From: Chloroflexota bacterium
GTDB taxonomy: Bacteria; Chloroflexota; Anaerolineae; Anaerolineales; Villigracilaceae
Reading direction: 5' to 3'
Assembly: GCA_016234495.1 (NCBI GenBank)
Contig: JACRBI010000054.1
Location: 310,001-374,000 of the forward strand
DNA: 64,000 nt
The notes beneath the pieces were generated by a model, which made no database searches, was not told the origin of the DNA, and was given only the letters and a program-made list of their open reading frames with translations. Position 1 is the stretch's first letter. Every line of letters begins with the position of its first letter. Positions 28,798 through 30,978 of the stretch are shown one piece after another. A program made the translations under genes and the position numbers.

Positions 28798-29457
28798 ATG
28801 CAATCCGAACTCGAAAAATTAAACACTGAAATCACCTCCTGCCGAAAATGTCCGCGCCTTGTGGAATGGCGTGAGGAAGTTGCGCGGATCAAACGCAAGG
28901 CATATAAAGATGACGAATATTGGGGCAGGCCGGTCCCTGGGTTTGGCGACCCGAATGCGCGCGTCCTCGTGGTGGGACTCGCCCCCGGGGCGCACGGCTC
29001 GAACCGCACAGGACGTCAATTCACGGGTGACGCTTCGGGCGGATTCCTTTTCCCAGCGTTGCACAAAGCTGGGTTTGCGAATCAGGCCCGGGCGGAGTCC
29101 AGAAGCGATGGTCTCATCCTCAAAGATATGTATATCACTGCGTCAGGCCGTTGTGCTCCGCCGGATAATAAGCCGAGTCCAGATGAGTTAAATAATTGCC
29201 AGCCGTATCTTGACCGCGAGATTCAAATCATCCAGCCGAAAGTCATTGTGTGTTTGGGTAAGATCGCGTTTGACAGAATCCTCAAAGTATTCGCGCTTCG
29301 TAGACTTGAGTTTGCACACGGCGCGATTTATGAACTGACAACTGATCACTGGCTACTTGGTTCATACCATCCCAGCCAGCAAAACACGTTGACGGGAAAA
29401 CTGACAATTGAAATGTTCGACAATATTTGGAAGAAAGCGAAATCATTACTTGAATGA
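28798..29457 (+). CDS. Type-5 uracil-DNA glycosylase
   Basis: A 219-residue iron-sulfur glycosylase of UDG family 5 (UdgB), which removes uracil and some other deaminated bases. The diagnostic motif GLAPGAHGSNRTGRQFTGD has Ala-Pro-Gly rather than the family 4 GEAPG. Cysteines for the 4Fe-4S cluster are CRKC near the start and two later ones (SGRCAPP, NNCQPY). The second active-site motif is GSYHPSQQNTLTG. The second of two adjacent ATGs is favoured by spacing from GGAG. The stop overlaps the next ATG (ATGA). Confidence 0.9.
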   Translation: MQSELEKLNTEITSCRKCPRLVEWREEVARIKRKAYKDDEYWGRPVPGFGDPNARVLVVGLAPGAHGSNRTGRQFTGDASGGFLFPALHKAGFANQARAESRSDGLILKDMYITASGRCAPPDNKPSPDELNNCQPYLDREIQIIQPKVIVCLGKIAFDRILKVFALRRLEFAHGAIYELTTDHWLLGSYHPSQQNTLTGKLTIEMFDNIWKKAKSLLE

Positions 29458-29939
29458 CTCCTAAAAATCTGATCACCCCCGGCCAACTCGCGCCTGATTT
29501 TGAACTTGAAGATATCGACGGAAATATCGTGCGTCTTTCCGATTTTCGCGGAAGCAAGCCGATTGTGCTGACCTTCCTGCGTGGGTTTATGTGACCCTAC
29601 TGCCGCGCGCAGTTGGCGCGTATGCGGGATAATTACGCAGATTTCACCAGACGCGGCGCCGCGATTATCGCTGTCGGCCCTGATACTGCGCAGACCTTTC
29701 AACGATATTGGGAAAATGAGAATCTTCCGTACATTGGTTTGCCCGATCCTGACCACCGAGTTGCAAGGCTGTATCGTCAGGAAGTGAATTTGTTCAAGCT
29801 TGGGCGTATGCCGTTGAATACCATTGTTGATATTGATGGGCGCATCCGTTATGTTCACTTCGGCTCGTCCATGTCTGATATCCCGGATAACGAAACTTTT
29901 CTAAACGTAATAGACCACCTAAATGAGTCATCAAGATAA
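29454..29939 (+). CDS. Probable selenocysteine-containing peroxiredoxin (in-frame TGA at residue 47)
   Basis: A 161-codon AhpC/TSA-type (Prx-like) thioredoxin-fold peroxidase. Residues 1-46 (LAPDFELEDIDG, VLTFLRGFM) and 48-161 (PYCRAQLARM, LPDPDHRVARLY, NTIVDIDGRIRYVHFG) are in one frame. They are joined by TGA at 29592-29594, exactly where the family has the peroxidatic cysteine of C-P-x-C-R. The resolving-type Cys 50 is intact, giving UxxC. A GC-rich hairpin begins about 10 bases after the TGA. The gene is coupled on both sides (ATGA upstream, 16-17 base overlap downstream). The alternatives are a nonsense mutation or a sequencing error of TGC/TGT; the intact frame on both sides argues against decay. 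Confidence 0.75.
29604..29626 (+). promoter_or_regulatory. SECIS-like hairpin after the in-frame TGA
   Basis: CGCGC (29606-29610) pairs with GCGCG (29616-29620) around the loop AGTTG, extended by a G-U pair and a bulged outer stem. The loop G lies about 18 bases after the TGA, inside the usual bacterial SECIS distance (about 16-37), and is at loop position 2, as known bacterial SECIS elements require. Confidence 0.5.
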
Positions 29940-30978
29940 TGTGACTCTGGGACGCGTTGCATTTCTAGGCTCAGGTGAGACCTCGCTGGCTGGAGGCCGC
30001 ATTTTCGAATCGCTTGCCCGTCGAATCGCGGAACCTTTGTATGTGGCGATCATGGAAACTCCTGCCGGCTTTGAGTTGAATACTTCAGTCGTTGCGGGGC
30101 GTGTGGGAGATTTTCTCAAGACGCGCCTGCAAAATTACAAGCCGACCATCGACTTGATTCCCGCCCGAAAACAGGGAACCGAGTTCAGCCCGAATAATCT
30201 TGAAATTCTAAAACCCCTTTTACATGCAAATGTCATATTTATGGGGCCAGGCAGTCCCACTTATCTGGCGCGTCAACTGCACGGCTCGCTGGCCTGGGAC
30301 ATTATCCGCGCGCGCCACAGGCTGGGCGCCACGTTGATATTTTCATCCGCCGCGACCATCTCCGTCGGCGCGTGGGTGCTGCCTGTTTATGAAATATATA
30401 AAGTAGGCGAGGATGTCCATGCAAAAGAAGGGCTGAATTTCTTTTTGGATTTTGGCCTGGATCTGTCTTTTGTTCCGCACTGGAACAATGCCGAAGGCGG
30501 CGCAGACCTCGACACCAGCCGTTGTTTTGTAGGCATGGAGCGCTTTGAGCATTGGAGCAAATTACTGCCTCGTGAAAATATTATCGTTGGCCTCGACGAA
30601 CATTCAGGCATCATCATGGATTTTGAAAAGGGCATGTGTGATGTGCATGGCGTCAGTTCGGTTTCCGTGGTCAGAAATATGAGCCTGGAAATTTATCCGG
30701 CAGGAGCAAGCTTTCCTCTCAGTGAACTTGGCAGCTTTGACATGTCCACCCCGGTCAAAAAGGGGATTCGCTCCGAGGTATGGGACATGGCTGTCAATGC
30801 GGCCAAAGTGGACGACGAAGAAGCGCCTCCTGCCGACGCCTTGAAACTGCTCAGCCAACGAGGAGAGGCTCGTGCCCGAAAAGACTTTGCCGAATCAGAT
30901 CGCCTGCGAGATGAGATCGCCGCGCTTGGGTGGGAAGTTCAAGACAGCAAGGAAGGACAAAAGCTGGTTAAGAGATAA
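29923..30978 (+). CDS. Cyanophycinase-like (S51) protein fused to a CysRS C-terminal-like domain
   Basis: A 351-residue protein. Residues about 10-240 resemble cyanophycinase/peptidase E-type class I glutamine-amidotransferase-like folds (VAFLGSGETSLAGGR, FMGPGSPTYLARQL, nucleophile-elbow segment IFSSAATISVGAW). The last 45 residues (GEARARKDFAESDRLRDEI, ALGWEVQDSKEGQ) closely resemble the C-terminal domain of cysteinyl-tRNA synthetase. The reading frame overlaps the peroxiredoxin end; a GTG at 29941 is an alternative start. Substrate unknown; the fusion suggests RNA- or tRNA-linked work, which is inference. Confidence 0.7.
   Translation: MSHQDNVTLGRVAFLGSGETSLAGGRIFESLARRIAEPLYVAIMETPAGFELNTSVVAGRVGDFLKTRLQNYKPTIDLIPARKQGTEFSPNNLEILKPLLHANVIFMGPGSPTYLARQLHGSLAWDIIRARHRLGATLIFSSAATISVGAWVLPVYEIYKVGEDVHAKEGLNFFLDFGLDLSFVPHWNNAEGGADLDTSRCFVGMERFEHWSKLLPRENIIVGLDEHSGIIMDFEKGMCDVHGVSSVSVVRNMSLEIYPAGASFPLSELGSFDMSTPVKKGIRSEVWDMAVNAAKVDDEEAPPADALKLLSQRGEARARKDFAESDRLRDEIAALGWEVQDSKEGQKLVKR

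Follow-up and report, generated by a model that had tools for sequence, protein, structure and literature searches.

The stretch of DNA analysed here, a window of 64,000 nucleotides from a member of the Chloroflexota, contains a peroxiredoxin-like gene whose reading frame is interrupted by a single TGA. Does this codon end the gene or is it read as selenocysteine (Sec), and what kind of enzyme would result? The initial annotation, made from the window sequence alone, had proposed a probable selenoprotein, a peroxiredoxin (Prx) in which the TGA takes the place of the peroxidatic cysteine. The selenoprotein assignment was strongly supported by the Sec machinery of the genome, the recurrence of the TGA in many genomes and the open frames of the homologues; the position in the active site had to be revised. 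Judged by comparison of the sequences, the in-frame TGA is almost certainly read as Sec. With a probability of roughly 0.85, the gene encodes a selenoprotein in which Sec47 is decoded via a selenocysteine insertion sequence (SECIS) and a Prx scaffold carries a UxxC thiol:disulfide oxidoreductase site. The features of the locus are compiled in Table 1.

Table 1. Positions in the window of the predicted selenoprotein gene, its functional elements and its neighbours
Feature	Position	Strand	Evidence
Predicted selenoprotein gene, Prx-like UxxC thiol:disulfide oxidoreductase, 161 aa	29454..29939	+	Pfam AhpC-TSA (PF00578), 96.6 bits; AlphaFold2 model with Prx fold
UGA codon 47, predicted Sec47	29592..29594	+	TGA kept in 69/72 close matches and in 49/50 matches of the phylum sample
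Cys50 codon, second residue of UxxC, at the place of the peroxidatic Cys when aligned to true Prxs	29601..29603	+	Invariant in alignment A1 (30 proteins); alignments
Putative SECIS core with a stem of 6 bp and the loop AGUUG (5 nt, 29611-29615), in which G 29612 and U 29613 are conserved	29605..29621	+	Comparison of relatives
Pro120 codon, position of the thioredoxin cis-Pro and the Prx Arg	29811..29813	+	Invariant in the 30 aligned proteins; aligned with the Prx Arg
Upstream gene, uracil-DNA glycosylase (UDG) superfamily	28798..29457	+	PF03167, 117.2 bits
Downstream gene with C-terminal CysRS anticodon-binding domain	29923..30978	+	PF23493, 31.4 bits (cut-off 23); residues 299-346 match CysRS 3tqo_A

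Apart from the TGA at codon 47 the frame was open up to its TAA stop (29937-29939), and both flanks of the codon were intact as first described. Translation with TGA as U yielded a protein with one U in the context FLRGFMUPYCRAQL. The end of the UDG gene and the start of the selenoprotein gene share the four bases ATGA (29454-29457), and the downstream gene begins within the selenoprotein gene. The coupling by overlap to both neighbours and the glycosylase upstream were thus confirmed; the description of the downstream product as cyanophycinase-like was not, for no such Pfam domain was present at E ≤ 1e-3. PF23493 was the sole Pfam domain found in this protein, whose long N-terminal part had no Pfam match at the same threshold. 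The neighbourhood was stable among 39 loci of the window's own type (A-type), counted by hand: the core of the downstream gene occurred in 38 and its CysS_C tail in 36, and a UDG gene lay within the fetched flank in 22, often with another gene in between. A Pfam search of the neighbours of two loci of a paralogous type (B-type) revealed no redox partner, and no relative of the window protein was found in the viral contigs scanned. The window also holds many other TGA-interrupted frames with a cysteine near the stop, which form a list of further candidates.

The genome of the window (G000; 4.1 Mb in 57 contigs, 98% complete) contains selA, selB, selC and selD, the set of genes which the initial annotation had named for a search. 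SelA and SelB were recognized with 552.7 and 360.8 bits, respectively. One tRNA-Sec exceeded the Rfam cut-off (66.3 bits) and was called tRNA-SeC with the anticodon tca by ARAGORN. SelD (G000:C49:17094-18026; 341.7 bits) has an in-frame TGA of its own in the context LSACAGUASK and is probably a selenoprotein, too.

The AlphaFold2 model of the window protein, calculated with Cys in place of Sec, had a mean pLDDT of 93.3, a pTM of 0.89 and a Prx fold; the best structural matches were Bcp and AhpE with TM scores of 0.82-0.92. Helix 48-59 of the model, directly after codon 47, is the active-site helix. Residues were matched by HMMER alignments, as the rows of the structural matches gave ranges only. 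When 2ywn and 2cx3 were aligned, their Prx-motif Cys fell on Cys50 and the Thr/Ser of (T/S)xxC on Sec47, and the Arg before the next strand fell on Pro120. In the alignment to ResA (3c71), CPHC was placed on UPYC with its first Cys on Sec47. Of the Prx motif PxxxTxxC, the Pro corresponds to Arg43, the Thr to Sec47 and the Cys to Cys50. According to the passages cited from PMC2757866, Prxs have, among the proteins of the thioredoxin fold class, a TxxC site after loss of the N-terminal thioredoxin Cys, and an Arg at the cis-Pro position. Together with the alignments, these positions place Sec47 where thioredoxins have their nucleophile and Pro120 at the cis-Pro position. The TGA is therefore not located at the peroxidatic cysteine, as had been claimed, but three residues ahead of it, in the place of the Thr. 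Five loci (L074, L075, L077-L079) form a third paralogue group (C-type) with UMQC or ULQC and an AGUU SECIS of their own; these proteins, which are outside the 30 of alignment A1, lack the proline and have QRTA where the A- and B-types have Pro120.

The protein combines a PF00578 domain with a UxxC motif. Of the features of Sec-containing Prxs it has the AhpC-TSA domain and the fold; Sec does not occupy the peroxidatic position of PxxxTxx(C/U), and the active-site Arg is missing. We favour a reading as a Prx-like thiol:disulfide oxidoreductase of the UxxC type over one as a Sec-peroxiredoxin. The closest overall folds, those of the true Prxs Bcp and AhpE, speak against this reading and leave room for peroxidase activity of the modelled protein. 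In such a selenoprotein peroxidase Sec47, or Cys50 at the peroxidatic position, would reduce peroxide directly and the other residue would resolve. Membership in the AhpC-TSA family, the structural matches and the alignment of Cys50 with the peroxidatic Cys are consistent with this alternative; we consider it unlikely in view of the altered remainder of the Prx site (Arg43, Sec47 and Pro120 for Pro, Thr and Arg) and because the published Sec-Prxs, in the passages cited, are of the TxxU and not of the UxxC type (PMC13188914; PMC1088965).

The conservation of the TGA was followed in 101 genomes comprising the window's own, its genus, family and order, with a close match defined by E ≤ 1e-35. Among 72 such matches, counted by hand and then recounted, 69 had the in-frame TGA and three had no stop and encode Cys, which answers the question raised at the outset whether the homologues always have C or U here. 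Within the genus, a close match with a single TGA was present in 46 of 57 genomes; the codon itself was inspected in 37 of these and taken from the match list for the other nine. Several of the 11 genomes without a match are incompletely assembled (completeness 53-99%). A phylum-wide sample of 400 genomes contained 47 with a match at E ≤ 1e-25, and 49 of the 50 matches carried TGA, one of them together with TAA; the sole match without a stop was G061. Read at codon level, the 39 A-type loci, one from each of 39 genomes (with that of the window; 37 of the genus and two of the family), all had TGA; of the 25 B-type loci, 22 had TGA and the remaining three Cys. G067 was listed with two TGA codons, but the extracted frame holds one, and G073 was listed with one TGA and a TAG close to the C-terminal end. 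Only two of 91 rows in the tree had a second stop (L055, L106); the other extracted homologues were open, in agreement with the view that the gene bears no other damage such as frameshifts. Coding constraint goes on past the TGA, with differences of 0.24/0.08/0.58 at codon positions 1/2/3 in the 15 codons before it and of 0.23/0.16/0.53 after it.

The Sec machinery accompanied the TGA. SelA scored above the cut-off in 57 of the 59 genomes with a TGA match, and 48 of the 59 had a tRNA-Sec of at least 61 bits; none lacked both. Two genomes with TGA (G033, G050) had no SelA match, yet each had a strong tRNA-Sec. Eleven lacked a full strong tRNA-Sec; in two of these (G035, G067; 53 bits) it was cut at a contig end and was not called by ARAGORN. 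We attribute the missing genes to fragmentary assemblies and, for the tRNA, to stricter filters.

The three genomes with Cys in place of Sec (G061, G075, G088) had no SelA above the cut-off. They belong to one family and are therefore not three independent cases. SelA had no match in G075 and G088; in G061 it matched in two pieces, both below the cut-off (G061:C6:29000-33000), possibly a decaying selA or an assembly fault. The best tRNA-Sec scores of these genomes were 46.5-47.9 bits, two of them just above the Rfam cut-off of 47, and ARAGORN called these genes tRNA-Ser; the next-best matches were a tRNA-Ser in G061 and a tRNA-Arg in G088. The loop sequence AGUU was AACU in two of the Cys genes and AGCU in the third. 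Another Cys orthologue was found in an Anaerolineales MAG (L084, 3001-3501), in the gene order UDG, an inserted ORF, the Prx-like gene and the gene with the CysS_C tail. This genome is competent for Sec, with SelA at 521.7 bits and a tRNA-Sec of 69 bits called SeC by ARAGORN. At the place of the A-type SECIS, 3' of the TGC, lies a hairpin GTTCC-CAGTTAA-GGAAC with a different stem, recognized by eye in this one sequence. We read it as a probable SECIS remnant after a recent change from Sec to Cys; such remnants behind Cys are documented for other families in the passages cited from PMC1794560. The tree of 91 rows had 86 Sec and five Cys forms, a ratio biased by L074-L079, which were picked for their TGA; the counts from the 101 genomes and from the phylum sample are unbiased. 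Further Cys forms are L084 and L086 (see below). At least three changes of the Sec/Cys label are needed on the tree, of which the starred branches alone force only one; its root serves for drawing only. L085, whose contig is that of L056, was omitted from the tree and from the sorting of the B-type alignment.

A hairpin with G at loop position 2 had been predicted about 10 bases downstream of the TGA. It is present as GCGCGC-AGUUG-GCGCGU and begins 11 bases after the TGA. Taken alone, the hairpin of the window folded no better than expected by chance (z = -0.84; 37 of 200 shuffles folded at least as well), and an Rfam search of positions 29400-29800 yielded no family at E ≤ 1. Its importance became evident only by comparison with the relatives. 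The A-type element, GCGCGC-AGUUG-GCGCGC, covers nucleotides 14-30 counted from the U of UGA; the B-type element, GGCGC-AGUU-GCGCC, is located nine bases (three codons) farther from the UGA, and the C-type hairpins, e.g. CGCCC-AGUUG-GGGCG, occupy the B place. After removal of duplicates, 23 of 41 distinct hairpins (18 A-type, five C-type) formed the A and C pairing set, with the 18 B-type hairpins counted separately. In this set, 95.7% of 138 cells were paired, two-sided changes occurred in four of six pairs, and none of 500 shuffles matched it on all five measures. The two-sided cells, eight in number, all came from the five C-type rows; within the A-type the stem was near-fixed and varied on one side only. 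The 32 distinct B-type hairpins, in an alignment to which L105 and L100 were added by hand, were paired in 99.5% of 192 cells, with two-sided changes in three of six pairs (two of 500 shuffles reached as high) and further pair types at a level reached by 80 of 500 shuffles. A stem-loop closely 3' of the UGA whose small apical loop contains a G, among the SECIS features of bacterial selenoproteins in the passages cited from PMC1088965, is thus found across the relatives, the single sequence not being significant.

Mean synonymous diversity in the A-type was 0.23 for ten codons within 48-59 and 0.49 for 60 codons elsewhere; in the B-type it was 0.31 in the region of codons 48-59 and 0.53 elsewhere. 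A-type codons 52, 53 and 55 were invariably GCG, CAG and GCG where the residue was kept, and Leu54 was encoded by TTG in 38 of 39 genes, compared with 81 of 446 Leu codons elsewhere; codons 48 and 58 were unconstrained and as diverse as the rest of the gene. Loop variants were rare: C for U in L027 and UCGUU for CAGUU in L045 and L112 among the A-type, and loss of the G in L103 among the B-type. The residues Ala-Gln-Leu stand at 52-54 in most A-type and at 55-57 in most B-type genes and so travel with the loop. Since the B place is the more widespread one, we infer that the A clade may be the one whose SECIS moved, with the root of the tree not fixed.

Could the TGA nevertheless be a true stop, either in a pseudogene or between two short ORFs, of which the second (108 aa) would start anew at TTG 29613? 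Under translation table 11, only the part after the TGA appears as an ORF of at least 80 aa in this frame. This explanation is exceedingly improbable, as this TGA recurs throughout the phylum sample, coding constraint extends over both sides, the hairpin is paired and partly covarying, and Cys replaces the TGA in genomes without SelA above the cut-off; in the model, termination would also break the fold directly ahead of the active-site helix. A genome-wide reassignment of UGA to another amino acid was rejected as still less credible, since TGA (29455-29457) terminates the overlapping UDG gene and the tRNA-Sec and selA, selB and selD are present. A sequencing or assembly error for TGC or TGT in the window genome can be dismissed in view of the TGA in all A-type loci, unless one error is common to all these assemblies. 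By TGA recurrence, coding constraint and hairpin, pseudogene and sequencing error are practically excluded.

For the selenoprotein read as a UxxC oxidoreductase, we infer the following course of Sec insertion and catalysis. UGA 47 would be decoded by SelB and Sec-tRNA-Sec at the SECIS hairpin. Sec47 would act as the attacking nucleophile and Cys50 as the resolving thiol, with Pro120 at the cis-Pro position. Most likely, the protein would reduce a partner at a disulfide or sulfenate; PrxQ is the best candidate for this partner. In a Bacillota MAG (L086, 2980-3897), a Cys homologue which retains CPYC and GRMP is fused to a PrxQ-like domain. The latter contains FYPKDMTPGCT and KRTTFVID, that is, the Pro, Thr, Cys and Arg which we take to form its Prx site; against PrxQ models it scored 143.8 and 124.7 bits, below the respective cut-offs of 260 and 140 bits. 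No SelA was found in the genome of L086, and its best tRNA-Sec match (53.1 bits) was a tRNA-Ser. The genome of the window encodes a PrxQ above the cut-off (167.7 bits; G000:C18:43349-43807). The two kinds of site adjacent in one chain suggest that the UxxC/CxxC unit reduces PrxQ, a lead from one fusion in one MAG and in the Cys form. A wider proposal is rather doubtful: that the protein became near-wholly fixed for Sec in this lineage as a dedicated selenol reductant of PrxQ, and that the SECIS of the window clade shifted three codons towards the UGA together with Ala-Gln-Leu (GCG CAG TTG), so that an RNA signal would dictate residues 52-56. If the link to PrxQ holds, the selenoenzyme would take part in peroxide defence as a reductant and not as a peroxidase.

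The group provides a large, mostly Sec-containing set of orthologues with natural switches between Sec and Cys, among them one family whose genomes have no SelA above the cut-off and a Sec-competent genome in which a SECIS-like hairpin still follows the Cys codon. It also offers paralogues which differ in the position of the SECIS and, along with it, in protein sequence. Annotation programs generally take UGA as a stop, and selenoprotein genes are widely misannotated, as stated in the passages cited from PMC1088965. Having scored below the cut-off of each of the seven NCBIfam models it matched, the window protein may well be missed or shortened in annotations of this lineage.

Several known systems resemble the protein. 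Sec peroxiredoxins (TxxU) share the AhpC-TSA domain and the Prx fold; they differ from the window protein, whose Sec replaces the Thr and precedes the peroxidatic position by three residues, and in which the Pro and Arg of Prxs are missing. The best NCBIfam match was to SelL-related redox proteins (NF040769), matched at E ≤ 1e-3 by all 30 members of alignment A1 (for the other 29 by E-values only); with 68.9 bits the window protein stayed below the cut-off of 120, and it has a single Sec (UxxC). SelL carries UxxU. The ResA/TlpA thiol-disulfide oxidoreductases of cytochrome maturation have a CxxC that aligned with UPYC, and Pro120 corresponds to their cis-Pro in the positions cited from PMC2757866; the ResA model gave 54.8 bits against a cut-off of 170, and the sequence of the window protein, read by eye, showed neither an N-terminal signal nor an anchor. 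The closest likeness, by motif and description, is to the Prx-like thiol:disulfide oxidoreductase selenoproteins with PF00578 and UxxC or UxxU. In the passages cited, these are listed as predicted selenoproteins (PMC13188914, with high confidence; PMC9312934), the UxxC type is included in PMC2398784, and the Sargasso Sea study describes a Prx-like family in which a thioredoxin-like UXXC replaces TXXU (PMC1088965). None of the titles and abstract openings found on selenoproteins or selenocysteine in Chloroflexi, Anaerolineae or Chloroflexota named the gene. Three selenoprotein families were counted for Chloroflexi in Table 2 of PMC1794560, so the use of Sec in the phylum is not new. Since the UxxC type is published as well, the novelty is modest, and the selenoprotein verdict is firm: the window gene is probably a lineage-wide addition to a published UxxC family, from which it differs by the nearly exclusive presence of Sec among its close matches and by the conserved neighbourhood of UDG and CysS_C-tail genes.
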